From assembly GCA_947631535.1 (NCBI GenBank), contig CANRLU010000001.1:83532-123755 (forward strand): a DNA stretch of 40,224 bases, in the 5' to 3' direction. Shown here piece after piece: positions 1,847 to 27,020 of the stretch (within the stretch, counting starts at the first letter, position 1; each line of letters starts with the position of its first letter). This DNA is from an uncultured Clostridia bacterium (lineage in GTDB: Bacteria > Bacillota > Clostridia > Oscillospirales > Ruminococcaceae). The translations under genes and the position numbers were made by a program. The notes beneath the pieces are model-generated. The model was not told where the DNA came from, did not search any database, and was given only the letters and a program-made list of their open reading frames with translations.

Positions 1847-1883
1847 ATTTTCACTTCCGTTTCGTTAAAGATCCTGCGGCGGA

Positions 1884-7410: not shown

Positions 7411-7444
7411 TATGCGTCCAGCTCCTCTCGTTGCATAGGATAAT

Positions 7445-8581
7445 TTAAGCTTTGCCGCTTCTTCCGCCCGTCACAGCCGAATAAAGCTTCGGCAGCAGCC
7501 TTTCAAACAGCATCGCGAACACAAGGCAGGCAAAAAACGTTATCACGGGCGCCCCGAAATATATAAGTGCCTGGGAGACCGCGCCGTCCGGCAGAAGTTT
7601 AGCGCCTATCTTTTGCAAAAATCCCATTGCCGGCTCGTGGAAGAGATATATTGCGAAGCTGTAGCCCGCGGCTTTAAGGAGCCTTCGCTCGGCCTTTTCG
7701 GACCTGAAGACCGTGGCGAACCTGAAGAAGAAGCAGAATCCGAAGATGACGGTGAGCTTTCTGAAGAACTCGTCGGCAAAGCGGTCGTTCATAAGGCAGA
7801 AAAGCCCTATCGAAGCGGCGTAGAGCAGCGCAATTACCGGCGCGGGTATCCTGTCGAGCTCGCAAAGGTGCCTTTGATATTTCACTGAATAATATCCCAG
7901 GCAGAAATAAACGAGCGCCGAAGAGCTAAGGCAGAATATGCCCGTCTGAATATCGAGCACGTAAACAAGCGCGAGAAGCACGAGCACCGCCTTGGGGAAG
8001 CGGTCAACGGCCTTTTTAAGAAGCGGCGCTATAAGATTTAGGACAAAAAGATCCCTTAAGAACCACAGCGGCGAAACGAACGGCGAGTAAAAGCTCCCCG
8101 CACCGCTGCTCGGAAGTATCCCGAAGAAGCCGTCGATATAGTCCACAACTCCCCAATCGGCTATTATTTTGCTCTCGTTGCCGAAAAACCCGCTTATAAC
8201 CGGAAGCTTCTGCGCGACAAAATAGGCGGCTATCCAGAAGGCGTTGAGTATGAAATACGGTGCGATAAGAGTGCGGAGCTTTTTGCGGACGTTGTCGGCC
8301 CAGTCGAACTCGCGGCGGAACAAAAGTATCGCCGAGATAAAGAAGAATCCGGGCACCGAGCATCGCACGATAATGTGAGAAATAAGATATTTGGCGGTTT
8401 CGAGCCAGGCGGGCGCCTGCAAAAGGATATCGCCGTCGGAAAAGGAGATAACGGCCTCGTCGGCGTGCCAGAAGAGCACCATAACGGTGAGCCACACCCT
8501 TAATATCTGTATCCGCTTCGATTCTTCCGCGCCGATGCCGTATGCGGCTCTCGGCAGCGTTTTGCTCTGTAATGGAACCAT
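7445..8581 (-). CDS. Acyltransferase family 3 membrane protein
   Basis: 378 residues with roughly ten membrane segments. The N-terminal helix ILRVWLTVMVLFWHAD holds the family's conserved histidine, and a SPLWFLRDLFVLNL segment follows mid-protein; both are typical of the Acyl_transf_3 (OafA/NodX-like) family. Members transfer acetyl, succinyl or similar groups to extracytoplasmic sugars, so this gene probably decorates the polysaccharide. The ATG start at 8581 follows a GGCGGGG segment that can pair with CCTTT to form a small hairpin over the ribosome binding region. The 43-bp gap upstream is one of the largest in the operon. Confidence 0.85.
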   Translation of the reverse strand: MVPLQSKTLPRAAYGIGAEESKRIQILRVWLTVMVLFWHADEAVISFSDGDILLQAPAWLETAKYLISHIIVRCSVPGFFFISAILLFRREFDWADNVRKKLRTLIAPYFILNAFWIAAYFVAQKLPVISGFFGNESKIIADWGVVDYIDGFFGILPSSGAGSFYSPFVSPLWFLRDLFVLNLIAPLLKKAVDRFPKAVLVLLALVYVLDIQTGIFCLSSSALVYFCLGYYSVKYQRHLCELDRIPAPVIALLYAASIGLFCLMNDRFADEFFRKLTVIFGFCFFFRFATVFRSEKAERRLLKAAGYSFAIYLFHEPAMGFLQKIGAKLLPDGAVSQALIYFGAPVITFFACLVFAMLFERLLPKLYSAVTGGRSGKA

Positions 8582-8624
8582 ATAAAAGGCCCCGCCTTTC
8601 GGTGAAAATATTGTATGACTGCCG

Positions 8625-9674
8625 CTACCTTCCCTGCTTGAGCGAAAGAAGGAGTTCGAGCAAAGAATACGCCCGAAGCTTCATAAGCAGCGCGGCGGCA
8701 TACTGCCTAAAAGGCAGCTTCTCAATGGGATACTCCGCCAGGACCTTTTTCAGCTCGCCGTCTTCGCAAAGGTCTTTGAGCCACTGCCTCACCTGCGCCC
8801 TTCCGGCGGACTTTTTCTGCCTCACGGCCGCTATGGCGCTTCGGCGCGCACGCGCTATCAAAAATCTGCCGCAGCGAAGCGATACCTCGCTCTCGGGGTA
8901 AAGCGGCGCAAGACGGCGCTTTATTTCGCAGTAAAGCTCTTTTACCTTGCCGAAGCGGTCGGCCCTGAAGGTTTTAGTGAGCGAGCCCGCATTGGCACAG
9001 TAATAATACACCGGCGAGGCTTCCGTGGCGACGGTGCGGCATTTTTGCAAAACGTCGATGTCGAATATCACGTCCTCCGAGATAAACTGCCGCTCCGAAA
9101 CGAACCTTATGCCGTTATCCTCTATTATGCTCCTTCGAAACAGCGCCCGCCACACCGATACCTCCATAACGGTATCGCGGGTACGGCCCGGCGCAGTGGC
9201 GACAAAGTCCAAAAGAAGCCCGCGCATCTGCTCTTCGCCGCTCCAAAGCCTTTCTTTTCCGTTCTCGGGAGCTTCGGTTATCCCGTCGGCGTCGCTGTAA
9301 TATATCCCGCCGTACACTATGTCGGCTCCGGTTTTTACGGCGCGGTCGTAAAGCTTTTCGCACATGTCTTGGGTGACGAAGTCGTCGGAATCCACAAACG
9401 CCGCATATTCGCCCGCGGCGGCGTCAAGGCCGCTGTTTCGGGCATATCCGAGCCCTGCGTTTTGCTTATGTATCACCTTTACCCGCGGATCGGCCGCCGC
9501 AAAGCCGTCGCACATTTTGGGGCAGCCGTCGGGCGAGCCGTCGTCCACGAGTATTATCTCGATATCGGAAAAGCTCTGCCCCAAGAGCGACTCCATACAC
9601 CTCTCAAGATAAGGCTCCACCTTATACACCGGAACGATTATGCTTATCGCCGGAATGTGCTGACTGCCGCTCAT
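8625..9674 (-). CDS. Glycosyltransferase family 2
   Basis: 349 residues. The N-terminus gives ISIIVPVYKVEPYLERC (about residues 10-26), then IILVDDGSPDG (about 39-49) and AAFVDSDDFV (about 89-98), the standard GT2 nucleotide-binding and DXD elements. The C-terminus is basic and rich in Leu/Lys, consistent with peripheral membrane attachment. It overlaps the upstream Fe-S protein gene by ATGA (9671-9674). It resembles the GT2 genes at 6394 and 14259 in layout (each reads [IL]DD[GS]S.DG and contains a D-D pair after FAD/FVD/YVD), so the three are likely paralogues acting at successive sugars. Substrate unknown. Confidence 0.87.
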   Translation of the reverse strand: MSGSQHIPAISIIVPVYKVEPYLERCMESLLGQSFSDIEIILVDDGSPDGCPKMCDGFAAADPRVKVIHKQNAGLGYARNSGLDAAAGEYAAFVDSDDFVTQDMCEKLYDRAVKTGADIVYGGIYYSDADGITEAPENGKERLWSGEEQMRGLLLDFVATAPGRTRDTVMEVSVWRALFRRSIIEDNGIRFVSERQFISEDVIFDIDVLQKCRTVATEASPVYYYCANAGSLTKTFRADRFGKVKELYCEIKRRLAPLYPESEVSLRCGRFLIARARRSAIAAVRQKKSAGRAQVRQWLKDLCEDGELKKVLAEYPIEKLPFRQYAAALLMKLRAYSLLELLLSLKQGR

Positions 9675-10918
9675 ACGCTTCCTCCCCGCCCGCGGCCTCT
9701 GAGCCTGCCGAGCATCGATTTTACGCCGCGCCTTATCCCTTTCGGGACGCAGGCTATAATGCTCTCCTTTATCCTGTCGGCCCTGAAGAGCTTTTTGTAT
9801 TCGCGGTCAAAGCCCCCGTATCCTCCACCGATATACGCCTTTTCAAGGAGCTCTCGCTCCGGCCTTTTCCTGCTCGGCGCCCTGAGCTGATCGTTGTGCC
9901 GTGCGGCCTTTTCGGCCTCGGCGGGCATTACTTTAAGGCTGCCGCGGCAACTTTCAAACAATTCCGCGCCTTTTTCGGTGGTTATCAGCACGCAGGAAAC
10001 TCCGTTTTTGTTAGAAAGACCGTATTTTCTGACGGCGTCGGGATATTCCTCATGAAATCCCCAGAAGTCCCCCACGGTGATGTCTGCTGCGCGTTCGAGC
10101 CTTGCGTATTTGCAGTTGTAGCAGCTCTCGCGGGATATCAGCCCCTTTAAAAACGCAGCGAAATAAGGCAGCGTCCTGCCGTTTTTTATGACGGTTTTGC
10201 GGCTGCCGTCCGGCATTTTCATCTCAAAGGCGCACATAACGCCCTGGCCCTTGCTCTTTCCGCGAAAATTCACCGACTCCGTCTTTCCGCCCGACTCCTT
10301 CTCGGTAAACCCGATAAGCTCGCGCATCATCTTAACGCTCGGAACGCCGTGGCAGATAAGGTCGAGCGTATAAAGCCCGCTGCGGTCACCGCCGAGATAG
10401 CTTTTGAGCGCGGCAGTCTGGCAGGGGGTCCCCGAAAACAGGACCTCTCTGCCGGCGTCGAGGTCTTCTCTGACCTTTTTGTATATGCCCTCCGTCCTGC
10501 TCTGGGCATACTTCGAGCCGCGTATGGGCCTTAGGTCTTCAAGGCTGTCCGCCCTGACGTGAGCAGGAAAGAACCCGCCCCCGTCCTCGCACATTTTTAC
10601 GCCGTAGACCGTTCCGCCGCTTTTAACGACGGCTTCCGAAAGCACGGCGGCTATCCCTCCCGAGGACGAGCTTTTCAGTATATCCTCAGAGACCGCCGTT
10701 GCCGCCCACGCGCAGATCGGCTTATTCAGCTCAACGCCGTTCTGAAACGCGCATACCCTGCGGCAGAGGCCGCACTCAACGCAGGCCTCGGAATCTATCT
10801 CTGGATACAAAAACCCCGACGCACCCTCCGTCATCTTTATCGCCGACTTCTGGCAGACATCGGCGCAGGCTCCGCAGCCGCAGCAGTCGGAAACGTTATC
10901 AAACAGCGTTATAGGCAT
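9671..10918 (-). CDS. F420H2 dehydrogenase/hydrogenase beta-like Fe-S protein
   Basis: 415 residues. Two N-terminal ferredoxin clusters are visible: C12/C13-C15-C18-C22 and C46-C49-C52-C56. These are followed by the FrhB/FdhB-type beta-subunit domain (SSSGGIAAVLSEAVV, then LFSGTPCQTAALKSYL, then LICHGVPS) and a later Cys pair in SCYNCKYA. Stand-alone homologues occur in many polysaccharide loci next to pyruvyl transferases, where their reaction is unproven; a redox step on a sugar or on a carrier-linked intermediate is the usual guess. The start at 10918 has GGAGG nine bases upstream and lies 20 bp inside the preceding pyruvyl transferase gene. No coenzyme F420 biosynthesis gene is visible, so the family name should not be read as proof of F420 use. 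Confidence 0.85.
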   Translation of the reverse strand: MPITLFDNVSDCCGCGACADVCQKSAIKMTEGASGFLYPEIDSEACVECGLCRRVCAFQNGVELNKPICAWAATAVSEDILKSSSSGGIAAVLSEAVVKSGGTVYGVKMCEDGGGFFPAHVRADSLEDLRPIRGSKYAQSRTEGIYKKVREDLDAGREVLFSGTPCQTAALKSYLGGDRSGLYTLDLICHGVPSVKMMRELIGFTEKESGGKTESVNFRGKSKGQGVMCAFEMKMPDGSRKTVIKNGRTLPYFAAFLKGLISRESCYNCKYARLERAADITVGDFWGFHEEYPDAVRKYGLSNKNGVSCVLITTEKGAELFESCRGSLKVMPAEAEKAARHNDQLRAPSRKRPERELLEKAYIGGGYGGFDREYKKLFRADRIKESIIACVPKGIRRGVKSMLGRLRGRGRGGSV

Positions 10919-11996
10919 CTTGCAGGTCCTCCGTTTTCCGTGATATAAGAACGCTTTCCCTCAGATATTCAAGGCTTTCCGCCCTCTTTTCGGCGATAAC
11001 GCCCCCGACTTTTTCATAATCTATCGGCTCGCCGCCGAAAGGAGCTTCGCCGGCCGAGAGCGTGCGGTCATTTATGCCGAGCTCCGAAAGAAGCGAATTT
11101 ACCTTTTTTATACGGCTCTCATTGGTGAGATACACCTTGAACTGCTTTTTATTGAGTATTGAGAACACCGCGCCGTGAAACGTCCCCGTAAACACATACT
11201 CTGCGTTTTTGAACATTCCCGTCCATTCAAAGGGCGTAAGGCCCGCGGTCACGCCGGAATACCTTTTGTCACATTCCCCTGCGCCGTAGACCCTCAGGCC
11301 GTGCTCGTCGGCGTATTTAAATATGCGCTCCCTTATTTCCGCGGGGAGCTTTTCGCAGTAATAGAACAGTATGTAAGGCTTTTGGGCCCTTTTAGGCTCT
11401 TCCGTCGGGCAGGGAACGAGAAAAGTCGGGTCAAGAACGCGAACGGCCTCTCTGCCCGAGACGTTTTTAATAAGCTCCGCCGTCCTGTCGTCCCTCGCGG
11501 AAAGGGCGGAAAATTTCTTTATTCCCTCGGCGACGTATTCCGGCACGTCTCCCTCTGCCGAGGTGTTTCCCACGCTCGGCGCATATGCCGTGAGGTTCTT
11601 GCACGAAAGCCCCTCGCCGAATTTTATCTTCGCCCTGCCCTTGGGGTCGTCGTAGTTCCAGACCTCGTCGCTGCCGACGATAATGCAGTCGAGCCCGAGG
11701 TCGTTCACCTGCTTTGCACTGAAACAGAGCTTTGTGAGAGCAAGGCAGTCTTTTCTCGCTTCGGAGAAAATATGCGGCAGCCTTGTTTTTTCAAGCCACA
11801 TTTTAAGCGTCTCCCTGCCGCGGTAGAACCTGAACCACCCTGCGGTGTTTATCAGAAAGTGCTTTACGTTTATGCAGTTCACTATGCACACGCTGTCTTC
11901 GGGGAATAGCTCCCTGAGAGCCTGCTGCAGGGCATATGCCTGCAAAAACGCCCCGAAATTGTTGATATAGTGGTGCGTAAGTATGCCTATCTTCAT
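10899..11996 (-). CDS. Polysaccharide pyruvyl transferase family protein
   Basis: 365 residues. The N-terminus MKIGILTHHYINNFGAFLQA and the following YALQQALRE are the hallmark of the PS_pyruv_trans family (CsaB/WcaK-like). The C-terminal half has the GT-B-like nucleotide site region with YVFTGTFHGAVFSI, where the TG.FHG motif is conserved. Such enzymes transfer pyruvate from phosphoenolpyruvate to form a ketal on a sugar. In Gram-positive bacteria pyruvylated wall polysaccharide is the known ligand of SLH domains, relevant because an SLH protein is encoded five genes upstream. It starts 1 bp after the preceding glycosyltransferase stop. The acceptor sugar is not predictable. Confidence 0.87.
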   Translation of the reverse strand: MKIGILTHHYINNFGAFLQAYALQQALRELFPEDSVCIVNCINVKHFLINTAGWFRFYRGRETLKMWLEKTRLPHIFSEARKDCLALTKLCFSAKQVNDLGLDCIIVGSDEVWNYDDPKGRAKIKFGEGLSCKNLTAYAPSVGNTSAEGDVPEYVAEGIKKFSALSARDDRTAELIKNVSGREAVRVLDPTFLVPCPTEEPKRAQKPYILFYYCEKLPAEIRERIFKYADEHGLRVYGAGECDKRYSGVTAGLTPFEWTGMFKNAEYVFTGTFHGAVFSILNKKQFKVYLTNESRIKKVNSLLSELGINDRTLSAGEAPFGGEPIDYEKVGGVIAEKRAESLEYLRESVLISRKTEDLQDAYNAV

Positions 11997-11997
11997 A

Positions 11998-13113
11998 TCA
12001 CATCGCTCCCGCCAGTTTCAGATATTCCTCCTGAAGCTTTTTGGCCTCCGCCTCAATGTTATAGCCGTGCAGAGTCATAAGCTCGGTGTTGTCCCGTCTT
12101 TCAGCGTTAAGACTTAACGCTTCCTCCATAGCTCTTGCCCAGGCTTCGGGACCCTCTTCGAGCCCTATGAACCTCGCCCTGTCGGTTATCCCTATCTCGG
12201 GCGTGACGTTTTTTGAGAAAATGCAGGGCAGGTCGGCGGCCTGCGCCTCGACTCCCACCACCGGAAGCCCCTCCCAGAGCGAGGGCAGCACAAAGCAGTC
12301 GAATGCCTGATACCATTCGTTGGCGTTTGGAACGCTCCCCGCAAAAATCACGGAGTTTTCCGCTCCGAGAGCCTTGACGCGCTCCTTTGCAGCTTCCTCG
12401 AGCTCGCCCTCGCCCAAAAGAACGAGCACTGCGCTCGGGTCGGACTTTAAAAGCAGGGCAAAGGAGTCGAGCAGGAATTTATGGTTTTTCTGCGCCATAA
12501 ATCTGCCGACATGGCCTATAACGTGCTTCCCGTCAAGACCGGCGGAGCTTCTTATTTTACTTCTGACGTCTTCGTTATACGAAAATCTCCCGAGCTCTAT
12601 CGCGTTGGGGATTATCCTGTAATCTCGGCTTTCGGCGACCTTTTTTCCGTAGTAAAACGCCGCCGCGGCCTCACCGCAGGAGTATCTGTGGGTGATGTTG
12701 GCGCCGAGCCTGCTCTTGCAGAAGTCCTTGAGAGGCCTTTTGATGTCCTTGGCGTTGTTGGCGCCGTGAGCGTGAAATATCCTCACGGGGATGCCGTTCA
12801 CCTTTGCCGCGTGGAGCGCATACACCCCGAAAGCTCCGTTATGCGCCTCGAGTATCCTGTATTCGGGGTGTTCCGCAAAAAGCGACTTCATATACGAAAG
12901 ATACTTCGGATATTTGAGCGGATTGAGCCCCGGCGTGCGGAATATCCTGCCGCCAAGGGCGGTTATCTCGCCGTCGTAGGCGCCCGGCTTCGACTTGTTG
13001 CACAAAAAGTCGAATTGCACCTTGTCCCTGTCCATATGGCGGTAATAATTCATGAGCATGGTCTCTATTCCCGCCCTGTCCATATTGCTCACCGAATGTA
13101 AAACACGTATCAT
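11998..13113 (-). CDS. Glycosyltransferase, GT4 (GT-B) type
   Basis: 371 residues from ATG 13113 (MIRVLHSVSNMDRAGIETML), chosen because it overlaps the upstream stop as ATGA and has GGGGGAAG at correct distance; a longer reading frame to 13140 is not needed. It has a GT-B fold: N-terminal MDRAGIETMLMNYYR loop, a linker, then the donor domain with VIGHVGRFMAQKNHKFLLDSF, LLGEGE and the E-x7-E region in LPSLWEGLPVVGVEAQA. This is the 'EpsF/CapM-like' pattern found in exopolysaccharide loci. It should add a sugar to the undecaprenyl-linked chain with retention. Donor unknown. Confidence 0.88.
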   Translation of the reverse strand: MIRVLHSVSNMDRAGIETMLMNYYRHMDRDKVQFDFLCNKSKPGAYDGEITALGGRIFRTPGLNPLKYPKYLSYMKSLFAEHPEYRILEAHNGAFGVYALHAAKVNGIPVRIFHAHGANNAKDIKRPLKDFCKSRLGANITHRYSCGEAAAAFYYGKKVAESRDYRIIPNAIELGRFSYNEDVRSKIRSSAGLDGKHVIGHVGRFMAQKNHKFLLDSFALLLKSDPSAVLVLLGEGELEEAAKERVKALGAENSVIFAGSVPNANEWYQAFDCFVLPSLWEGLPVVGVEAQAADLPCIFSKNVTPEIGITDRARFIGLEEGPEAWARAMEEALSLNAERRDNTELMTLHGYNIEAEAKKLQEEYLKLAGAM

Positions 13114-14228
13114 TTTTTCTTCCCCCTGCCACTGCGGCAAACCTCTTCGTAAAGCGAGAGCGTGTCGTCAACAACGGCCTCCCAGGAATATTTTTCTCTC
13201 ATAAATTCCGTCTGCGCCCCGAGCCTGCCGGCGGGAACCTCGGTATTTATCGCTTCTTCAAGCTTCTGCCTGAGATCGTCGGGGTCGCCGTGCCTGAATA
13301 AAGTCAGATATTCTTCCGGCGCGACTTTATTCTCCTCAATGTCGCTCGCGATGCAGGGCGCGCCGTAGCTCAGCGCTTCAAGAAGGCTCAGCGGCATACC
13401 CTCGACGTCGCTCGGAAGAACATAGGCCCGACAGTTGGAAAAAAGCTCGTCCAAAAGCGCGCCGCTCACGAATCCCGCAAACGTCACTCTGCCGTCAAGA
13501 GAAGCCTTTTCGCGAATTTTGTTAACATAGTCCGTGTCGTTGAGCCTGCCGGCTATCACGAGCTTCAAATCGGTATCAATGCCCTTAAAGGCGTCGAGAA
13601 GATAATGCAGCCCCTTTTCGGGGACGAGCCTCGCAAGAAACAGAATATAATCCCCGCCCCTGAGCCCCAGCTTTGCTATCTCGCTCGGAGCTCTCCGCGT
13701 TCCCGTGGTGATGCCGTTTCTTATAAACGATGTCTCCCTTTTATAGGCGTTTTCAAAGTAGTTCTGCATATTTTCCGAGAGGACTATCATTCTGTCCGCC
13801 CGCTTTACGGCGGTCTTTTCGGAGCGCTTTATATACCATGTCGCGAGGGAGCCCCACTTGCTGCGCTGCCAGTCGAGCCCGTGGACCGTAACGACGGTGG
13901 GTATTCCGAAGAGTCTTGTGAGCCATGACATTCCCGCAGGGCCTTCGGCGTGAAAATGTATGACGTCGTAGTGCCCGAAAAGCGCCCTGAAAGCCGCAAG
14001 GACTGAATAAACTATCACGTCCGAGCCCTTTATGTCCACGGTGGGAACGTCTTTCAGCGCAACGCCCTTATAGGTCTTCGCAGAGCGCTCCTGACCCTTT
14101 CGACGGCGGTTGTAAAGCACGACTTCGTGCCCTCTAAGCGCCATTCTCACGGCGAGCTCCTCGACGGCTACCTCTATCCCGCCCTCGCGCGAGGGGACGG
14201 TCTTGTGGCCTATCATAGCTATCTTCAT
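13110..14228 (-). CDS. Glycosyltransferase, GT4 type, rhamnosyltransferase-like N-terminus
   Basis: 372 residues. The N-terminal half reads MKIAMIGHKTVPSREGGIEV followed by AVEELA, and later VVTVHGLDWQRSKWGSLA. This combination is seen in the DUF1972/WchF-like group of beta-rhamnosyltransferases. The C-terminal donor domain carries DYILFLARLVPEKGLHYLL and LPSDVEGMPLSLLEALSYG with the E-x7-E motif. It would act on the lipid-linked intermediate, classically as the second sugar transferase; rhamnose specificity is only a suggestion. Its start is 30 bp after the GT2 stop and its stop overlaps the next transferase as ATGA. Confidence 0.86.
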   Translation of the reverse strand: MKIAMIGHKTVPSREGGIEVAVEELAVRMALRGHEVVLYNRRRKGQERSAKTYKGVALKDVPTVDIKGSDVIVYSVLAAFRALFGHYDVIHFHAEGPAGMSWLTRLFGIPTVVTVHGLDWQRSKWGSLATWYIKRSEKTAVKRADRMIVLSENMQNYFENAYKRETSFIRNGITTGTRRAPSEIAKLGLRGGDYILFLARLVPEKGLHYLLDAFKGIDTDLKLVIAGRLNDTDYVNKIREKASLDGRVTFAGFVSGALLDELFSNCRAYVLPSDVEGMPLSLLEALSYGAPCIASDIEENKVAPEEYLTLFRHGDPDDLRQKLEEAINTEVPAGRLGAQTEFMREKYSWEAVVDDTLSLYEEVCRSGRGKKK

Positions 14229-14258
14229 CTGCTCTCTCCTTTCCGTAAACCGCTGATG

Positions 14259-15284
14259 CTATCTTCCCTTTAAGGCGGCTACAGGCGCCTTGAGCGCCTC
14301 ATACGCCCTCAAAAACACATATGCCGCGCGGTATCTCTTCTTTTTTATAAGCCGAAGCACGGCCTTCTTCTTGAATTTGAGCCTTGTGAACCTTGCGTTT
14401 TCAAGACCTTCGCGTATCACGGGGCTGTCCATATGCGCGGCAACCCTTTTAAGCTCGCCCGAGTCCTTTGCCGCGGCGGTGCGCTCCATAAAGATAAAGC
14501 AGGTAAAAGCCGTGTATCTGTCTATCTTTTCGGAAAATCCCTCGCCGTGCTCCGAAGCCGTGAGGCGCATCTCGCGCAGCAGGTTTTTGAACTGCTCGAA
14601 TATGCCGTCGCCTATTCCGCGGGAAAGCGAAGACTCCCTTATCCTGTAGAAATAGGTCACTTCCGAACTGACATATATGCTGCTCATCGAATAGAACACC
14701 TCGGTGAGGCATAAAAGGTCTTCGCCGAACTTTAGGCCCTCGGCTATCCTCATCTGGCAGGGGTAAAGCACCGAGCGGCGCATGGCATGGCCTATCATCT
14801 GATATTGCAGGTGTTCCCATTCCGTATTCATGACCGCAAGGGGATAGATCTTTTCTTTCAGCATATCTCCGGAATAATATCCGTCTTCTATACATTCGGT
14901 GACCTTTTTCGAACGGTCGCCGTAGTCGTAGAGCTTTGCCGTGAGTATAACGTCGGCCCCGCTTATGCGGATCTTTTCGCCGAAGTGCAAAAGAGCCCCC
15001 GGCGCAAGCCTGTCGTCGCCGTCAACGTATATCACGTATTCTCCGCCCGCGGCCATAAGCCCCGATTTTCTCGCTCTGTCCGGCCCGCCGTTCGGGCGGT
15101 GGATAACGCTCACCCTGCTGTCGGCAGCGGCGTATTCGTCGCATATTGCCGGACAGCCGTCGGGCGAGGAATCGTCAACAAGAATAAGCTCGAAATCGCT
15201 GAAATTCTGACTGAGTATGCTTTCTATGCACTCCCTTAAATACTCCTCGACCTTATATACCGTAACTATTATCGAAAAAAGCAA
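14259..15284 (-). CDS. Glycosyltransferase family 2
   Basis: 341 residues from TTG 15284. A TTG at 15293 sits directly against the GAAGGAG site with no spacing, whereas TTG 15284 is nine bases away and lies just before the first beta strand (FSIIVTVYKVEEYL), so it is preferred. GT2 elements are LILVDDSSPDG and YVIYVDGDDRL. The C-terminal third is basic and helical. It is the first glycosyltransferase in the operon, 36 bp after the SLH-SGNH gene. The substrate is unknown. Confidence 0.85.
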   Translation of the reverse strand: MLFSIIVTVYKVEEYLRECIESILSQNFSDFELILVDDSSPDGCPAICDEYAAADSRVSVIHRPNGGPDRARKSGLMAAGGEYVIYVDGDDRLAPGALLHFGEKIRISGADVILTAKLYDYGDRSKKVTECIEDGYYSGDMLKEKIYPLAVMNTEWEHLQYQMIGHAMRRSVLYPCQMRIAEGLKFGEDLLCLTEVFYSMSSIYVSSEVTYFYRIRESSLSRGIGDGIFEQFKNLLREMRLTASEHGEGFSEKIDRYTAFTCFIFMERTAAAKDSGELKRVAAHMDSPVIREGLENARFTRLKFKKKAVLRLIKKKRYRAAYVFLRAYEALKAPVAALKGR

Positions 15285-15320
15285 AAAGTCCAACTCCTTC
15301 GGCGCCGCACCGCGCCCGTT

Positions 15321-16889
15321 TTATTTTAACAGTTCGCCCGCCATCCAATCGGCGAGCTCTTTCATTCCCTCGGCATTGGGGTGAGTCCCGTCGTAAAACA
15401 GCGACGAGTCCATAATCCTGCCCTCGGTGCTTATCGTATCAAGGCCGTTAAGCTCCGCTATTTCGGCTATCCATTCGTTGAGCCCTGCAAGTGAGCTGCG
15501 CGGATACCCGCAAAGATATATCTTTGCCTCGGGATATTCGTCGGATATGTCGTCGAGCATCTTCTGATAATCCCTCATAAATGCGTCATAATCGCGCTTT
15601 TTGGCGTAGTCGTTGCAGCCGATGAAGACTATCACCACGTCGGGCGAGCGCCCGCAGATGCCCAGATCCCTGCCTCTGCCCGCACTTGCGGCGTGCTCCG
15701 GCTCTCCGAGGTCGCTTACCCCCGAGCCCGCATATGCGTTTATTTTGCAGATGTTCATTCCCAGCTTTTTTGCAAGCAGATACCACCACATCTGCGAGAC
15801 CTGCGTAACGTCGTCGTCGGGGTAGTTGAAAGTCTTGGGGGTATAGCGGCGGTAGGCGCTTAAGCTGTCGCCGATGACAGAGAGATATTTCCCCTCGAAT
15901 CGGCTGTTTTCCGGCTTTTGCGACTCCTTTTCCGCAAGCCCTTCGTCTGAGAGAGTTCCGAAGAAGTTCACGGAGCTTTCTTCCTCTTCCGAGACCGCCG
16001 CGGCGATGTATTTCGTTTCCGGAGTGACCTCTAAGGTTATGCTGCCGGAATTTATCCTGCTTTCGCCGATAACGCGGGTGTCTTTATCCAAACAAAAAAT
16101 AACATGCTCACTTTCGTCCCCGAATACGAGCGTTACGCTTTCGAGGGGGTAAAACTGACTGTCGATGTCGATGCGATACTGAACGGTCCCCTCTGCAGAG
16201 CGGTATTTTACCCAGTCGCCGCTGCGCTCGTAGCACTCGCCGGTGCGGTAGTAAAGCAAAAGCGGCACCCTGCGTCCGATTATGTCAACCGTCTTGCAAT
16301 AAAGCTCCGCCGCCTGCGCGCGGGTGACAAAAGAGCTTCCGCAGAATCCCCTCTTGCCTTCGGGCTCCATTATCCCGAGCGAGCACACCGCGGCCACGGC
16401 GCTCCGATATTTCTCGGGGATATCTTCATAGCCCTCCGTGCCGCCGTCCTGCGGGGCGTCAAAGCGGTCTTTCAAAAGATTTGCGGTCATCAGGGCGGCC
16501 TCATACCTGCTCACGGTGTGATTCATCTTCAGGTTCATTATGCCGATATATATTCCGTGAGCCATCAGCAGCTTACGGCCCGAAGCCGCCGCCTCGCAGC
16601 CCTCCACGAAGCCGTAAAAGGCCTTTGCAAGGATATCGGAAAACTCCTGTAAAGTGAGCCCGCCCTCGGGCAGAAACAGCTGCCCGCCGTCATCCAAAAC
16701 TTCCGCCGCCGACATAACGCCGTCCTCGCAGGCCCGAAGGATATATTCATACCCCTCATATTGGGCGGGAACGTCTTCAAACAAAGGCCCGCCGTAAGCC
16801 AGAGCTCCCGCCGATGCACAAAAACATACGGCGGACGCAAGAGCAAGACATACGGCCCTTTTTGCGATACTTTTAAGGCGGCAGGTCAC
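15321..16889 (-). CDS. Secreted SLH-domain SGNH hydrolase
   Basis: 522 residues, GTG start at 16889 overlapping the upstream gene as GTGA, with AAAGGGG at a good distance. It has an N-terminal signal peptide (basic start, hydrophobic core, Ala-rich end near residue 32). Three SLH-like repeats follow at about 36-90, 105-140 and 153-203, each ending in a form of the 'R-x-E/Q-A' helix. A beta-rich linker covers about 205-325. The SGNH/GDSL hydrolase domain (330-522) has block I GDSL with Ser342, Gly/Asn blocks (AGSG at 387-390; GCND with Asn426) and Asp500/His503 in DGTHPN, so the catalytic set looks complete. SGNH enzymes of envelope loci act as O-acetyl esterases or transferases on sugars. SLH repeats imply anchoring to the wall polysaccharide. 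Confidence 0.82.
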   Translation of the reverse strand: MTCRLKSIAKRAVCLALASAVCFCASAGALAYGGPLFEDVPAQYEGYEYILRACEDGVMSAAEVLDDGGQLFLPEGGLTLQEFSDILAKAFYGFVEGCEAAASGRKLLMAHGIYIGIMNLKMNHTVSRYEAALMTANLLKDRFDAPQDGGTEGYEDIPEKYRSAVAAVCSLGIMEPEGKRGFCGSSFVTRAQAAELYCKTVDIIGRRVPLLLYYRTGECYERSGDWVKYRSAEGTVQYRIDIDSQFYPLESVTLVFGDESEHVIFCLDKDTRVIGESRINSGSITLEVTPETKYIAAAVSEEEESSVNFFGTLSDEGLAEKESQKPENSRFEGKYLSVIGDSLSAYRRYTPKTFNYPDDDVTQVSQMWWYLLAKKLGMNICKINAYAGSGVSDLGEPEHAASAGRGRDLGICGRSPDVVIVFIGCNDYAKKRDYDAFMRDYQKMLDDISDEYPEAKIYLCGYPRSSLAGLNEWIAEIAELNGLDTISTEGRIMDSSLFYDGTHPNAEGMKELADWMAGELLK

Positions 16890-18184
16890 GGCTTTACCCC
16901 TTTCGTGATGAGTTTTGTGCGCACTCTTTCATTCCGCCCGTCCGACGGCTCTTCTTCGGCTTCGTCCGGCTCGTCTATCCGATATGACATCGTGAGCAGC
17001 GAGATCACGGCGGTGAGATAAATATAGTTGAAAGTATTGTCGGTAAGCGCTGTGGCGACAAGATAAACGCAGTAGCAGAAGCTCAGCACCGCGCCGTGTA
17101 TCCCCTGGAGCTTCGCCACGAGCCACGACCTCACAGAAAACACCGAAAGCCCCCACAGCAGCAGTCCCCAGAATCCTATGTCGATATAAAGCGCGACGAT
17201 GTCGTTATGAAGTCCGGTGCCGCTTGCGTCGTTCATATATTCAAGCAGAAATCCCGCTCCGCGCCCCATATAGTTCGGCCCGAAGTGGTAATAATCCCTC
17301 ACGAGCTCCAGAAGATGGGCTCGGCCCATAAGATTTATGCCCCAGTGCTCCTCGAGATAGCTCATAAAGCCCCAGTCGATAAGCCCGACGTAAAGCAGGA
17401 GTATCCCCGCGGCGACCGCTCCGGCTGCCATGAGCCACTTCACGTTTTTGCGCTTTTCGCTCGCGCCGAACCACAAAGCTATTCCGGCCGCAACGGCAAG
17501 CGCAACGGCAAGAAGGCTTATCCTCTTGAAGCCTGAGAGGAAGAAGAACAGCGACAAAAACGCCAATACATATACCCACGGCTTCTTCCAGAGTTCCTTA
17601 CGGTTTATTATAAAGAACACGAGGTATATCCCGAACGCAAACGTGAGCTCGTGTATCTCCATTTTGGCGATTATCCCGCCGGTGTCGTCGGCAAAGCTGA
17701 CGATGACGTTGCGCAGCTCGGAAAGATATGCCGAGAGCCCGCTTTCGCGTATGACCGTTACGAACCTTATGGCGTTCACGAATATCATCGAGACAAGATT
17801 TATCCATATGCTCCGGCTTCCGAGTACATAGACCATACCCGCCATGGCGAGAATTACGTTTATGTGATATACCTGGCTGAAGAGCCCGCGGCGTATCTCG
17901 GCAAAAGAGCTGAAATTGAACACCCACAGAAGCGCCGATATCGAAAGGTCGATGACATAGGGCAGCACGAGAACTCCGATATAGCATATCAGCTTTTTGC
18001 CCCTGACCAAGTCGGTGGAGACCAGAAAAACGCATACGCTCACAACGATCATCAATATGGCGAAAAGGTGCTTGAAAAGGATACCCACGCCGAAGTGCAA
18101 GGAATCGTTGTCGAGGTAATACATAAGCGAGGTCAGGGCGAAATACACCGCCGTCCACGCATAGAGCGACGCCTTTTGCTTCAT
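16886..18184 (-). CDS. O-antigen ligase/polymerase-like membrane protein (Wzy candidate)
   Basis: 432 residues with about ten to twelve membrane segments. A long extracytoplasmic loop late in the protein contains GRAHLLELVRDYYHFG and a G-rich GRGAGFLLEYMND...GLHNDIVALYIDIG region, the pattern of the Wzy_C/O-antigen-ligase superfamily, where an H-N-D-type loop is functional. With Wzx and Wzz-like genes in the same operon, the best reading is the polymerase that joins repeat units outside the membrane. The start overlaps the Wzz-GGDEF gene stop by ATGA, the stop overlaps the SLH-SGNH gene by GTGA. Confidence 0.82.
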   Translation of the reverse strand: MKQKASLYAWTAVYFALTSLMYYLDNDSLHFGVGILFKHLFAILMIVVSVCVFLVSTDLVRGKKLICYIGVLVLPYVIDLSISALLWVFNFSSFAEIRRGLFSQVYHINVILAMAGMVYVLGSRSIWINLVSMIFVNAIRFVTVIRESGLSAYLSELRNVIVSFADDTGGIIAKMEIHELTFAFGIYLVFFIINRKELWKKPWVYVLAFLSLFFFLSGFKRISLLAVALAVAAGIALWFGASEKRKNVKWLMAAGAVAAGILLLYVGLIDWGFMSYLEEHWGINLMGRAHLLELVRDYYHFGPNYMGRGAGFLLEYMNDASGTGLHNDIVALYIDIGFWGLLLWGLSVFSVRSWLVAKLQGIHGAVLSFCYCVYLVATALTDNTFNYIYLTAVISLLTMSYRIDEPDEAEEEPSDGRNERVRTKLITKGVKP

Positions 18185-20142
18185 ACCTTTTCGGCGTCGG
18201 CCTGCTGCTCTTCGCCGGACTTCGGCTCAACGGTCAGATGGTCTTTGCGCAGAGCGGTGGCCTTTGAAATGAGCGAGCGTATATTATATGTTCCTGCCTC
18301 GCGGGCGTTCACGCCTCCGAGCGAATATGCCACGGGGTAAGAGCCCGCCTGGTCGTTGATTACGGTAACAAGGCGCTCAAGCTCGGGAGCTATGCTGTCC
18401 TCCGAAGCGTCGAGGTCGAAGAACGCCCAGAACTGCCCGCTTCCGTTATATCCCACAAAGCTTTCGCTGCGGTTTTCCACCATTTCGCGAAGCACTCTGC
18501 CGAACGTCTGAAGTATCCTGTCGGCCTCCTCGCGGCCGAGTTCCCTGTTTATCTCATGCTGATTGCGAAGCTGCAGGCTTAAGCAGCAGAAGCTGCTCCG
18601 CATAGCCGATTCCTTTGCCTTTTCGCTGATGAAATTGTCGCAGGCTACGCGGTTCATGCAGCCGGTGAGGCGGTCCCTGAGGAAGACGTATTCCAGAATG
18701 TCTCCGATACGGCCGAGCAGCACAGCGGCTCCGCAGCCGATTATGAGGAACACCACCGCAACTATTATCATATAAAGCCTTATGTTGATGGTTGTTCCGG
18801 CGGTGACGCTCGTAAGAGTCTGGATATTCTGCGCGCCGAGATAGTCGTTATACTCCGAGTTGGTCTCGTCGGCTATGGCGTAAAGCTCGCTGAGGCGCTC
18901 CATAAGGGTGGAGATCTGCTCTTCTATCTCTTCGGCGGTCGCACTGCTGCTTATTACCGAATAGGGCGAAGCCGGCTGCAAAGTTGTGACGGTGGTGCCG
19001 TCTTCGTTCTGCTGAACGACTTCTATTGGCTTATAGTAGCCGTAGGTGCTGAGTATAAATCTGCAGTAGTCCTTATCCACGGTGGCGTGGTCGGCCTTTG
19101 TTTTGGCCTTGGCCCAGTTCGAGAGCAGCGTGTCGTACTCCACGGTGTGGTCTATTTCTTCCGTTTTTGTCCCGCCGCTGGCCGATGAGCTGTCGCGGTA
19201 GTTGTCGTAAACGTTGTCGAGGATATAATTGTAGTCCTCGGTGTAGTCGCTGTAGGTGTTCCCCGAGCTGCGCATCTTATCGACGTATGTATTTATTACC
19301 CTGTCGGTCTCGCTGAGGTCTTCCTCGGCGGTGGTGCTCTCAAGCTCGTGACGCGCGCTCTCATCGAGATACTTGCTTATGAGAACGTCGGTGTTTTTCG
19401 AGAGCTTGTTGCCCAGAATAAGCGAATAAAGCTTGTATACGTTCACCTTCTGGAGCATCTCGAAGTCGGACTGAAGGTCTTTGAAGGAATATCCGGTAGA
19501 AGCCGAGCGGAAGCCGTCCGACTTTTCGCTGTATTCGTAGAGCTTATCTATGGTATCGTTCAAAAGGTCGGATATCTGATTTGTAACGTCGAGATAATCG
19601 TATTCATCGACCTGTATTCCCTTCACCTTGTTGCTTATGTAGGTGCGGTTGATGTGTTTGGCGCTGTATTCCGAGGAATACACGTCCAAAAGCTCGTTCA
19701 GAACGTCGCGGACGAGGTCGGTGCTCGCGCCGGCGATGCCGCTCCCCATAGTGCAGGTTACGGAATAAACCGTGGGCTCTTCAACGCTCTTCTCGCCCTG
19801 CTCGTTGAGGGCGGTCTGAACGGCCAGATCTTCCTCTTTGACTATCGGTGTGACGGTTATGCTCGAACAGAATCTGTCAACGCTGTAAGAGCCGGAAAGT
19901 CCCAGATTCTCCATAGCCTTGGCCATATTGGCGGCGGAATTTATCTCTGAGGTGTCAATCCTGCTGCCGTCGGGTGCAAGGCCCTCGGCCGCCCGGTCGT
20001 TGCTGTAGCGGATAACCGCCGTGGCGACGTATTCCTGGCTTCCCGAAAGGAAGTAATAGGCCATCAAGGTCATCACGAAGAAGAAGAGGATTATGAACGG
20101 CATCCACTTTTTGAGATATCTGAAAAGCTGAAATTCTCTCAT
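18181..20142 (-). CDS. Wzz-like chain-length protein fused to degenerate GGDEF domain
   Basis: 653 residues. Membrane segments at about 14-33 and 455-480 enclose a roughly 420-residue extracytoplasmic domain that is charged and helical, the Wzz/CpsC layout but far longer than the usual Gram-positive form of about 230 residues. After the second membrane segment comes a GGDEF-family cytoplasmic domain starting LRDRLTGCMNR (about 487-497), the standard D-x-L-T-G-x-x-N-R opening. The signature GGDEF is replaced by GSGQF (567-571), so cyclase activity is unlikely. The domain may bind a nucleotide or mediate dimerisation. It starts immediately after the stop of the neighbouring paralogue (TAA-ATG) and overlaps the polymerase gene. 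The two Wzz-like proteins share several motifs (see the findings). Confidence 0.8.
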   Translation of the reverse strand: MREFQLFRYLKKWMPFIILFFFVMTLMAYYFLSGSQEYVATAVIRYSNDRAAEGLAPDGSRIDTSEINSAANMAKAMENLGLSGSYSVDRFCSSITVTPIVKEEDLAVQTALNEQGEKSVEEPTVYSVTCTMGSGIAGASTDLVRDVLNELLDVYSSEYSAKHINRTYISNKVKGIQVDEYDYLDVTNQISDLLNDTIDKLYEYSEKSDGFRSASTGYSFKDLQSDFEMLQKVNVYKLYSLILGNKLSKNTDVLISKYLDESARHELESTTAEEDLSETDRVINTYVDKMRSSGNTYSDYTEDYNYILDNVYDNYRDSSSASGGTKTEEIDHTVEYDTLLSNWAKAKTKADHATVDKDYCRFILSTYGYYKPIEVVQQNEDGTTVTTLQPASPYSVISSSATAEEIEEQISTLMERLSELYAIADETNSEYNDYLGAQNIQTLTSVTAGTTINIRLYMIIVAVVFLIIGCGAAVLLGRIGDILEYVFLRDRLTGCMNRVACDNFISEKAKESAMRSSFCCLSLQLRNQHEINRELGREEADRILQTFGRVLREMVENRSESFVGYNGSGQFWAFFDLDASEDSIAPELERLVTVINDQAGSYPVAYSLGGVNAREAGTYNIRSLISKATALRKDHLTVEPKSGEEQQADAEKV

Positions 20143-21522
20143 TTAATCCGCCTTCTTTCTGTTTCTCTTTATATCGCCCAGGAAGCTTATCACGTGGAGC
20201 ATCACGAATACCGCCAGAGTGAGCACGGCCGCCTTTTTTACCGCCGACATCGCCCTTGACTTCCAAGAGCTTACCGAAACGGTGAGATATCCGTTGGCCT
20301 GCCTGAAATCGTATTCCTTTACGAGCGAGCGGGCGCGTTCGGCAGTATCGGTGAGTTCGGCCTCTATCTGCTCTATCATTCTGTCGGCCCCCGCCGCCGA
20401 GCCGCTCTTTTCACCTTCCGCGGAAAGCTTATCGGCGATATATTCGTTGTCGGCGATCCTTGCGTGGAGCTCTATCATCTTGTCGGCGCTCTCCTCGGCC
20501 TCCTCGGCAAATTCGTCTACGCCTATCTTCGTCTGCGACATATAAAACTGCCCGTAGCTGTCGTATGTAGGAACAAGAACTATCCTCGCCATATCGTCCT
20601 CGTATTTTCTCATCACGGCGAGCCAGTTGTTGCTGGTCATGCGGTCTTTGCGGGCCTCAAAATCGAGGAAGATGTTTTCGGCCGAGAGCCTTCCGAGGTA
20701 GGTCTGGGTGTCCTTTGAAAGGCTGTTCTCGAGGACGTATGCCCTGAGGTCGGCAACAAGGGTATCTCGTATGTAATCGGCGCGGGTCTCTATGCTGCTG
20801 AAGCCCTCGCCCGTATCCTCCGACTGGAAGCTTCGGGTATTCTCCGAAAGCGTATACATAAAGTTTGCTATCCTGTCGGCCTCGGTGGAAAGGAGGTCGC
20901 ATATATCGAGATAATCCTCGCCGTTAAATTCGGAGTAGTCCTTGCTGAGCGGTTCGAGGTTGGTGGTATACTGCGCCGAGAGCCATTCCCTGTAGGCCGC
21001 GGAGAACACCTGGAGCACGTTTTCGCCGTCAAGGTGATCCGTCTTGCCGTTGGCCGAATATTTTATGCGGTATTCGGTGGAAACGCGGTAGTTGTCGCCG
21101 TCAATGCCGCCAGAGCTCTTTGCGGAGATATCCAGAACGTCTGCAAGATCCTCGGCTGTAACGTCGGACAGGACGTGCTTATCCTCCATTATATTCAGAA
21201 CTTCGCTGCCCAAAACGTCGGCCTGGTTGAACTTCGTGCCGTTGGGGTAAAGCCCACTCGAAGCGCCGTCGTAATTGAGCGAGAGAGTGGCGGTGCAGGA
21301 GCGCGGAACTTCCAATCCGCAGATCATAATGCTCACAAGGAAATATCCTGCCGTTACCACATATATCCAGCCCTTTTTGTGGAGCGGACGGTATCTCGTG
21401 CCGGTGATCTCTCTCATTCTCACACCGTCGAGCCTTACTATGTATATCAACGCCGCAATTACCAAGAGCGCCGCGACGGCTGCAAGAGCATATCCGCCGT
21501 AGGAATAAAGAAGGTAACTCAT
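20143..21522 (-). CDS. Wzz-like polysaccharide chain-length protein, paralogue without GGDEF
   Basis: 459 residues. Hydrophobic segments lie at about 9-29 and 50-70, followed by a 360-residue extracytoplasmic region and a C-terminal membrane segment (about 430-450) with a short basic tail. It shares with the downstream protein an A-T-x-x-x-x-Y start, a GLYPNGT/GLAPDGS block, a DYLDI/DYLDV-containing helix and an LSKDT/LSKNT motif, so the two are tandem duplicates. One extra N-terminal membrane segment and the absence of GGDEF distinguish it. It probably acts with the downstream protein in export or chain-length control. No tyrosine kinase (CpsD/EpsB type) is encoded here, although such kinases normally partner CpsC-like proteins. 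It starts 13 bp after the metallophosphoesterase stop. Confidence 0.72.
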   Translation of the reverse strand: MSYLLYSYGGYALAAVAALLVIAALIYIVRLDGVRMREITGTRYRPLHKKGWIYVVTAGYFLVSIMICGLEVPRSCTATLSLNYDGASSGLYPNGTKFNQADVLGSEVLNIMEDKHVLSDVTAEDLADVLDISAKSSGGIDGDNYRVSTEYRIKYSANGKTDHLDGENVLQVFSAAYREWLSAQYTTNLEPLSKDYSEFNGEDYLDICDLLSTEADRIANFMYTLSENTRSFQSEDTGEGFSSIETRADYIRDTLVADLRAYVLENSLSKDTQTYLGRLSAENIFLDFEARKDRMTSNNWLAVMRKYEDDMARIVLVPTYDSYGQFYMSQTKIGVDEFAEEAEESADKMIELHARIADNEYIADKLSAEGEKSGSAAGADRMIEQIEAELTDTAERARSLVKEYDFRQANGYLTVSVSSWKSRAMSAVKKAAVLTLAVFVMLHVISFLGDIKRNRKKAD

Positions 21523-26348: not shown

Positions 26349-27020
26349 ATGACAAGATCCGAAATCATCAAATACCTTATAGCCAACAACGCCGCCGTGC
26401 CGATAGTGCAGATAGCGGCGGGGCTCTTAGTGGCGCTTTTGCTTGCGCTATGCATTTACTTCGTATACCGCAAGACCTACTCCGGCGTGATGTATTCCAA
26501 GGACTTCAACATAACCGTGCTGATGCTTTCGCTCATAACCACATTCATCATAATGATAATCGGAAGCAACCTTGCGCTGTCACTCGGCATGGTGGGCGCG
26601 CTCTCGATAATCCGCTTCAGGACCGCCGTAAAAAACAGCCGCGACGCAGCTTTCCTCTTCTGGTCAATAGGAGTGGGGCTTTCCTGCGGCACCGGAGTAT
26701 ACACCATAGGCATAATAGGCTCGGTGGTAATAGGCGCCGTTCTTCTGATATTCAACAAGATCTCGCTCTCCGAAAGAAACCCCTACCTTTTGGTTGTAAA
26801 CGGGCAGAAGATAGACCACGAAAAGCTCGAAGACTTCCTTAAGGCCAACTGTCAGCGCTTTGTTCTGAGAATGACCAACCAAAGCTCGGGCAGCGTGGAA
26901 TGTACATACGAACTGCTGTTCAAGTGCTCTACCGGCGACTTCGTCGGCAGGCTTCAGGAGGCCTTCCCCGACGCCGATATGCACCTGCTCTCGTATCAGG
27001 GGGAGCTTGGGGGTGAATGA
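26349..27020 (+). CDS. DUF4956 membrane protein
   Basis: 223 residues with a strong AGGAGG site before ATG 26349. Membrane segments lie at about 18-39, 54-74 and 103-135, then a soluble C-terminal domain. The SLGMVGALSIIRFRT segment (78-92) followed by DAAFLFWSIGVGLSCGTG (99-116) is the DUF4956 hallmark. The function of this family is unknown. It is commonly encoded beside VTC-domain and CotH-domain proteins, as here, and is presumed to be a membrane partner of the polyphosphate-type enzyme. It is 67 bp after the kinase, with no terminator between, and overlaps the next gene by ATGA. Confidence 0.88.
   Translation: MTRSEIIKYLIANNAAVPIVQIAAGLLVALLLALCIYFVYRKTYSGVMYSKDFNITVLMLSLITTFIIMIIGSNLALSLGMVGALSIIRFRTAVKNSRDAAFLFWSIGVGLSCGTGVYTIGIIGSVVIGAVLLIFNKISLSERNPYLLVVNGQKIDHEKLEDFLKANCQRFVLRMTNQSSGSVECTYELLFKCSTGDFVGRLQEAFPDADMHLLSYQGELGGE

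Follow-up and report, generated by a model that had tools for sequence, protein, structure and literature searches.

A Wzz-type co-polymerase with a degenerate GGDEF domain in Clostridia as a candidate c-di-GMP input to polysaccharide assembly

The stretch of DNA analysed here (the window; 40,224 nucleotides, positions 83,532 to 123,755 of contig CANRLU010000001.1 in assembly GCA_947631535.1) comes from an uncultured Clostridia bacterium of the family Ruminococcaceae. A polysaccharide gene cluster occupies its minus strand between 22702 and about 4853 (Table 1), and one gene of this cluster, which opens with ATG on the minus strand (18181–20142) and codes for 653 amino acids, is the subject of this study. 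Its product, called PCP-B, joins the core of a Wzz-type co-polymerase to a domain of the GGDEF family that has lost its catalytic residues. Two hydropathy peaks bracket the predicted outer domain of PCP-B, and with the topology suggested by these two helices the GGDEF domain would face the cytoplasm.

Pfam GGDEF (PF00990) matches residues 489–628 of PCP-B at 41.6 bits (cut-off 23.8, E = 1.4e-10), in the span (residues 485–640) to which a preliminary description of this DNA, made from the letters alone, had assigned such a domain. The NCBIfam model TIGR00254 aligns with residues 484–628 at 36.4 bits, one bit below its cut-off of 37.4. Both motifs by which the domain had been recognized, a DRLTGCMNR opening and GSGQF at residues 567–571 where GG(D/E)EF is expected, are present as described.

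Table 1. Features of PCP-B and of the surrounding polysaccharide cluster (positions are those of the window)
Feature	Position	Strand	Basis
Calcineurin-type metallophosphoesterase with predicted membrane helices	21536..22702	minus	PF00149, E = 2.6e-12; helix scan
PCP-A, tandem core paralogue without cytoplasmic domain, abuts PCP-B	20143..21522	minus	BLASTP, E = 3.6e-6
PCP-B, Wzz-type co-polymerase core plus pseudo-GGDEF domain, 653 amino acids	18181..20142	minus	Open reading frame; family homology
Membrane helix 1 of PCP-B, residues 10–28	20059..20115	minus	Hydropathy scan
Predicted extracytoplasmic domain, residues 29–457 (about 430 amino acids)	18772..20058	minus	Hydropathy; conserved columns
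Membrane helix 2, residues 458–476, just ahead of the GGDEF domain	18715..18771	minus	Hydropathy scan
Pseudo-GGDEF domain, residues 489–628	18259..18678	minus	Pfam PF00990, E = 1.4e-10
DRLTGCMNR motif, residues 490–498	18649..18675	minus	Sequence reading
N532, counterpart of guanine-binding PleD N335	18547..18549	minus	Alignment; role from PMC7288161
D541, counterpart of guanine-binding PleD D344	18520..18522	minus	Alignment; role from PMC7288161
GSGQF in place of GG(D/E)EF, residues 567–571	18430..18444	minus	DNA reading
Multi-helix membrane protein, probable Wzy-type polymerase, 9 predicted helices	16886..18184	minus	Helix scan
Remaining cluster: GDSL esterase, five glycosyltransferases, pyruvyl transferase, FrhB-type protein, acyltransferase 3, probable flippase	4853..16889	minus	Pfam
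Probable flippase	4853..6397	minus	Helices; no Pfam match

The genes on either side of PCP-B would suit a polymerization complex. PCP-A, which has no Pfam match, is a paralogue of the PCP-B core (22% identity by BLASTP, E = 3.6e-6; profile probability 100, E = 1.3e-38). The start of the polymerase candidate shares four bases with the stop of PCP-B; this protein likewise has no Pfam match, and its label as Wzy rests on its helices and context. Together with the glycosyltransferases, pyruvyl transferase and acyltransferase encoded downstream, these features place PCP-B within what appears to be a Wzy-dependent polysaccharide cluster.

Homologues with the same domain order were gathered, and their number is at least 37: GGDEF-type proteins come from 36 genomes plus L001, a Lachnospiraceae metagenome-assembled genome. 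A further 14 proteins bear an EAL domain on the same core. Loci were taken from the best 30 matches of each search, which makes these member counts lower bounds. Family-level groups number at least 15 for the GGDEF type and at least eight for the EAL type. Pfam GGDEF is present in 36 of 36 GGDEF-type members scanned, and the best GGDEF structure in the PDB is found by the family profile with E = 8.7e-14; Pfam EAL is present in 13 of 13 EAL-type siblings scanned (best E = 5.1e-60). The PCP-B core profile (E ≤ 1e-8) has matches in the host's family (49 of 396 genomes), order (22 of 394), class (50 of 391) and phylum (6 of 398); the genome sets overlap, and the counts include relatives without a tail. 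No match was found in seven other genomes of the host's genus. In the phylum set outside the class, the longest open frame is 552 amino acids, compared with 589 for the shortest complete tailed member, so no tailed PCP-B was seen there.

Some members enter only part of the counts that follow. The contig-edge fragment L006/L031 is included among the 37 tails and in the GGDEF-type alignment, and lies outside the tree and the 36 neighbourhoods. L117/L192, a GGDEF-type member of 880 amino acids that belongs to the 37, lies outside the GGDEF-type alignment and the EAL counts; its gene (L192, 9178–11820) encodes a long low-complexity tail rich in Lys and Ser after the pseudo-GGDEF domain. L209 lies outside the 13-member EAL alignment and inside the 14-member residue, tree and neighbourhood counts.

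A tree of 76 cores (36 GGDEF-type, 14 EAL-type and 26 tailless; midpoint root, with long branches flagged) recovers the GGDEF type as one clade with bootstrap and Shimodaira–Hasegawa-like approximate likelihood ratio test values of 100/100, and the EAL type as one clade with 95/92, the latter present in 96% of 200 bootstrap trees. Tail labels need two changes on the core tree, compared with 33 in shuffles. Because each tail type forms a single clade, two separate fusions to the same core, one of a GGDEF and one of an EAL domain, are likely. The 17 most distant tailless relatives, of roughly 500 amino acids, were used as an outgroup only. Four neighbour proteins scanned at four outgroup loci were LepA, GyrB, a pectate lyase and one without a match, with no polysaccharide genes among them. 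These 17 PCP-like proteins (L035–L047) are from the host's family, and some of them are paired.

The Wzz identity proposed in the preliminary description holds for the family rather than for the window protein by itself. Pfam Wzz (PF02706) has no match to the window PCP-B at E values up to 1, and at E ≤ 0.01 it recognizes 9 of 36 members of the GGDEF type and 3 of 13 of the EAL type (best 2.6e-5). A profile made from 22 canonical CpsC proteins of the host and its relatives matches the family cores with probabilities of 87.5 (GGDEF-type), 92.9 (EAL-type) and 95.4 (PCP-A) over 90–98 columns near the N terminus. Controls gave far lower values: at most 1.3 for reversed CpsC alignments and 0.7 for column-shuffled ones (20 per comparison), and 0.3 for the GGDEF-type core compared with two other membrane families of the cluster. 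Given the high CpsC comparison and the low controls, the PCP-B core is best described as remotely related to Wzz, with an outer domain of far greater size, and 'Wzz-like' is the right term for the family, the match covering roughly the first 100 core residues. The GGDEF-type and EAL-type cores match each other with a profile probability of 100 (E = 1.6e-80).

Residues of the active site were then compared across the GGDEF-type tails, with 36 alignable rows and L007 read separately as the 37th. In the reference enzyme PleD, N335 and D344 hold the guanine base of GTP, and among GGDEF domains D327 is a metal ligand and E370 serves in metal binding and catalysis (PMC7288161). The GG(D/E)EF signature is present in 0 of 37 members, and the replacement motif is itself conserved (GNGSF in 17 of 36, GSGQF in 6 of 36, GNAQF in L007). 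The counterpart of N335 is kept in 34 of 36 members (35 of 37 with L007, which keeps both guanine contacts), that of D344 in 35 of 36 (36 of 37) and the Asn of LTGxxNR in all 36 aligned. At the D327 place, Asp occurs in 17 of 36 members and Gln in the window protein; at the E370 place, no acid occurs in 33 of 36 aligned members, Asp is found in 3 of 37 (GSDQF) and the window protein has Gly. An active diguanylate cyclase with an unusual signature could draw on these scattered Asp residues and on the PF00990 score above cut-off. However, with both metal ligands gone from the window protein and the signature gone from every member, we find this scarcely credible and reject it on residues. The inactivity of the GGDEF domain, as originally proposed, is thus well supported.

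The inhibitory-site (I-site) motif RxxD is also missing (present in 0 of 36 aligned members), and the window protein has R-S-E-S; the column of its Arg is placed differently in two alignments, and RxxD is absent in both. The loss of catalytic residues might be taken as a sign that the domain is a functionless, decaying relic. The derived motif, mostly GNGSF or GSGQF, is nevertheless common to 15 family-level groups, and the GGDEF tails have a median ratio of nonsynonymous to synonymous substitution rates (dN/dS) of 0.063, close to the 0.050 of the core (28 GGDEF-type pairs with usable dS, from 136 pairs of both types compared). Many dS values are near saturation and these ratios are to be taken as 'well below 1'; the sole usable EAL-type pair gives 0.099. 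GGDEF tails are under purifying selection, and we give the relic explanation almost no weight. Chance or an annotation artefact is ruled out by the same dN/dS values and by conservation in 37 proteins.

Retention of the guanine contacts invites the idea that the domain senses GTP, as CC3396 does, and couples chain building to the GTP supply (an energy or stringent state). Such a sensor sits poorly with the rest of the site, in which an acid at the E370 place is confined to three members and absent from the window protein, the D327 place holds Asp in fewer than half of the members, and the K442/R446 segment is not conserved. GTP sensing also leaves unexplained both the EAL siblings and the intact EAL genes described below, and we judge it quite unlikely.

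The EAL-type siblings show a parallel pattern. In RocR numbering, as assigned here, E175, R179, N233, E265, D295, K316, E355 and Q372 are kept in 14 of 14 fused EAL domains. The second metal Asp, D296, survives in 1 of 14 of them, and 3 of 14 still have the general base, E352. All ten residues are kept in L209, one is lost in L179 and L202, and two are lost in the other eleven; the branch order of L209, L179, L202 and the two-loss forms is not resolved in the tree. The pattern of a degenerate EAL domain, pocket residues kept and catalytic residues lost, is seen in 13 of 14. What E352 and the ExL motif do in EAL domains is described in PMC12943098. The residues retained are those expected of a pocket that binds without cutting, and binding of cyclic di-GMP (c-di-GMP) by the EAL siblings is a natural guess. 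With its complete set of residues, L209 (9186–11480) may join a co-polymerase to a phosphodiesterase that is still active.

Neighbourhoods of up to 20 kb around each locus, some clipped by contig ends, were searched with in-house profiles. At all 36 GGDEF-type loci, PCP-A adjoins PCP-B on the same strand and a metallophosphoesterase gene is present. A polymerase-like gene is likewise found at 36 of 36, no more than 100 bases away in 27. At the 14 EAL-type loci PCP-A adjoins PCP-B in every case and the metallophosphoesterase is present in 13, and among nine nearer tailless relatives the corresponding numbers are eight and six. Neither of these genes, nor a bacterial tyrosine kinase (BY-kinase), was found at the 17 outgroup loci. 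At one locus, L216, the PCP-A open reading frame (9636–12041) is unusually long, at 801 amino acids compared with the usual 450–480.

No BY-kinase match of at least 30 bits occurs in the 50 neighbourhoods of tailed members (36 GGDEF-type, 14 EAL-type), as judged with a kinase profile derived from, and thus not independent of, the CpsC loci; a single 22-bit match lies in a cut open reading frame of L001. The host genome holds a separate, normal CpsC/CpsD pair on another contig (C39). These observations agree with the earlier suggestion that the tail replaces the tyrosine kinase, a suggestion to which we return below.

Intact c-di-GMP enzymes are encoded beside several of these clusters. In the GNGSF subclade, a protein of about 455 amino acids with a hydrophobic N terminus and an EAL domain is encoded 5.7 kb from PCP-B in 18 of 19 neighbourhoods, the 19th being clipped by a contig end; the example in L169 matches Pfam EAL with E = 5.9e-55, and all ten residues are present in 18 of 18 of these stand-alone proteins. 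Across all neighbourhoods, 25 of 26 stand-alone EAL domains scoring at least 80 bits have all ten. The exception, at L217 (15467–16966), is a degenerate stand-alone EAL protein in a cluster whose PCP-B is tailless, possibly an unfused form of the arrangement. Same-strand genes for proteins with an intact GG(D/E)EF lie in no fewer than 3 of 14 EAL-type neighbourhoods (L200, L201 and L207) and no fewer than 2 of 36 GGDEF-type ones (L030 and L198), and also near the tailless L214 and L215; these were recognized by motif pattern and by profile matches read by eye, in a search that was not exhaustive. Those at L200 (17179–18366), L201 (16951–18081) and L207 (14431–15813), a few kb from EAL-type co-polymerases, are possible local cyclases.

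An EAL protein encoded at the same place in nearly every cluster of one subclade raises the possibility that the pseudo-GGDEF domain is purely a protein dock or scaffold, holding that protein, the polymerase or PCP-A without any nucleotide. The loss of the signature and RxxD, and of the metal ligands in most members, fits this explanation. Precedents exist: the pseudokinase EcpK is proposed as a scaffold for EpsV (PMC12004946), GGDEF and EAL domains can pair, as shown for LapD (PMC3032553), and the trigger phosphodiesterase PdeR works by direct binding to its partners (PMC5052742). A pure scaffold, however, would have no need of the guanine contacts kept in 35 and 36 of 37 members, and the EAL siblings keep their eight site residues without exception. 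We regard docking of this kind as unlikely.

Taken together, these data make it somewhat probable, in our estimation, that the dead GGDEF domain on this Wzz-type co-polymerase is an input from the c-di-GMP system that steers polymerization or chain length in place of a BY-kinase. A shared c-di-GMP signal is the best account because two unrelated c-di-GMP domains were fused at the same site of the core and both lost catalysis, because the GGDEF tails are clearly selected, and because sister clusters carry intact phosphodiesterase genes. According to this proposal, PCP-A and PCP-B would form a heterotypic Wzz-type co-polymerase that works with the adjacent Wzy-type polymerase, and the catalytically dead GGDEF domain on the cytoplasmic end of PCP-B would serve as the input module for the cell's c-di-GMP system. 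Binding of a ligand, or docking of a c-di-GMP enzyme, would be relayed through membrane helix 2 to the outer domain, whose change would alter co-polymerase assembly and, with it, polymerization or chain length. The c-di-GMP input would then fill the role of BY-kinase phosphorylation in CpsC/CpsD systems. The domain order, the loss of catalytic residues, the conserved operon, the separate EAL fusion, the intact EAL proteins of sister clusters, the lack of a kinase match nearby and purifying selection are observed, and the topology, a PCP-A/PCP-B pair, the identity of the ligand, the way in which the signal runs and its effect on chain length are inferred. For the window domain, the candidate ligands are c-di-GMP bound by a mode other than the I-site, GTP, or a docked EAL partner. 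The preliminary description's idea that a nucleotide signal acts directly on the co-polymerase thus gains circumstantial support from the EAL siblings, 13 of 14 of them degenerate, and from the intact EAL genes of one subclade.

Transmembrane GGDEF and EAL proteins often pair sensors outside the cell with outputs inside. The signal might therefore run in reverse, with the outer domain sensing the state of the polymer or envelope and the cytoplasmic domain acting as an output on a partner c-di-GMP enzyme. The intact EAL partners of the 18 clusters would provide such targets, and the fused EAL domain of L209 may itself be active. Opposed to this are the Wzz-related outer part, the second Wzz-type gene and the polymerase-like gene at 36 of 36 loci, which point to a working part of a polymerization complex, and the degenerate tails in 13 of 14 EAL-type and 37 of 37 GGDEF-type members. 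We consider reverse signalling very unlikely.

The content of the host genomes bears on the proposed c-di-GMP input in both directions. Of 49 member genomes, 41 have strong GGDEF matches as counted by profile score (E ≤ 1e-20), among them 28 of the 30 of good quality; by type, the numbers are 14 of 14 for EAL and 27 of 35 for GGDEF. The window's genome has three GGDEF matches: PCP-B, a regulator with a weak match (24.7 bits), and a multi-part protein with receiver, HD-GYP-type and GGEEF parts and an RxxD (all but the GGDEF match read by eye).

Several results weigh against a c-di-GMP input as proposed. No EAL match was found in the window's genome assembly. Among the 35 GGDEF-type genomes searched, 8 lack a GGDEF match at E ≤ 1e-20; completeness is 90% or more in two of these, and seven of the eight still carry the cluster EAL gene. 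The missing RxxD rules out a c-di-GMP receptor of the I-site type, as in PelD and PopA, for the window protein. The polymerase-like profile has no match at any of the 14 EAL-type loci, for which reason the GGDEF and EAL types may serve different polymerases; one of these loci, L034, has a Wzy_C gene in place of the polymerase-like gene. Near 9 of 9 nearer tailless relatives, too, no BY-kinase match was found; working without a kinase thus does not require the tail, which is no simple stand-in for it. The earlier suggestion of replacement is only half supported, by the lack of a kinase match in 50 of 50 tailed neighbourhoods and by the CpsC/CpsD pair elsewhere in the genome. Finally, a full-length structure model of PCP-B, built from two sequences, has a mean predicted local distance difference test score of 42 and is too poor for use.

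Comparison with known systems indicates that the parts are of known kinds. How the co-polymerase is assembled is controlled by a tyrosine kinase in systems of the CpsC/CpsD and Wzc kind (PMC12004946, PMC12220298), and Wzy-dependent chain length is ascribed to tyrosine phosphorylation of PCP-2 proteins, with no mention of GGDEF in the available portion of that account (PMC12220298). PCP-B resembles CpsC/CpsD (Wzd/Wze, CapAB; PCP-2b) in its Wzz-type N terminus, its two helices around an outer domain and the polymerase-like gene nearby. It differs in the size of that outer domain (about 430 residues, compared with 330 for the host's whole CpsC), in the tandem PCP-A/PCP-B pair, in its cytoplasmic GGDEF or EAL domain and in having no BY-kinase found in the neighbourhood. 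As is proposed for PCP-B, the EcpK/EpsV system of Myxococcus xanthus is described as placing a Wzx/Wzy co-polymerase under the control of a catalytically dead domain in place of tyrosine phosphorylation (PMC12004946), but EcpK is a separate pseudokinase whereas the PCP-B family has a fused pseudo-GGDEF or EAL domain.

Receptors of the c-di-GMP and GTP systems offer further parallels. LapD (PMC3032553) is a transmembrane protein with degenerate GGDEF and EAL domains that relays the cytoplasmic c-di-GMP state to its outer domain; it has a HAMP domain and both domains in tandem and controls a protease, whereas PCP-B carries a single domain on a polysaccharide co-polymerase and has no HAMP match. 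PelD, including that of Gram-positive pel loci in Firmicutes (PMC7112168), likewise belongs to a polysaccharide system and sits in the membrane with a dead GGDEF domain, but it binds c-di-GMP through the RxxD absent from the PCP-B family, and Pel is synthase-dependent rather than Wzy-dependent. Alg44 (PMC8461298) is a 'co-polymerase' that is itself a c-di-GMP receptor, as is proposed for PCP-B, although it uses a PilZ domain in the alginate system and lacks both GGDEF and EAL domains. CC3396 of Caulobacter (PMC7288161) has a dead GGDEF domain that works as a nucleotide sensor, again as proposed for PCP-B; CC3396, unlike PCP-B, binds GTP and controls an attached EAL domain, and the available part of the source mentions no role in polysaccharide synthesis.

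The combination of these parts is apparently undescribed. Among the literature matches listed, which covered titles and abstract openings and not subscription papers or protein-architecture databases, no Wzz–GGDEF or Wzz–EAL fusion was described; domain-architecture databases may list the fusion without comment. We tentatively put forward the possibility that the family, from Clostridia-like bacteria, is a new class of Wzx/Wzy co-polymerases whose polymerization is gated directly by the c-di-GMP system instead of a tyrosine kinase, and that the scaffold has twice captured a c-di-GMP enzyme, one GGDEF and one EAL, and turned it into a receptor. The EAL clade would still display the steps of loss from enzyme towards receptor, with none, one or two residues lost. 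c-di-GMP is known to act directly on synthase-type systems, namely those for cellulose, alginate and Pel. If these co-polymerases read c-di-GMP, the signal would have a direct, post-translational hold on Wzy-type polymerization too. The family also supplies natural controls, with GGDEF-type, EAL-type, possibly active EAL-type and tailless forms on one scaffold.

Other features of the window lie outside the cluster. Base composition does not mark the cluster as a horizontal island, the GC content being 0.51–0.57 across the window without a clear step. Beyond its far end, genes for a phage portal protein and the large and small terminase subunits occupy 677–3634 on the minus strand. A plus-strand gene at 23009–26281 diverges from the cluster and encodes a possible regulator of it, a hybrid histidine kinase that carries two domains of the periplasmic binding type. 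No pel genes were recognized among the window open reading frames scanned. A row of DUF4956, CotH kinase and VTC polyphosphate polymerase genes (26349–29934, plus strand) resembles the accessory set reported beside pel loci (PMC7112168), and here adjoins a Wzy-type cluster.

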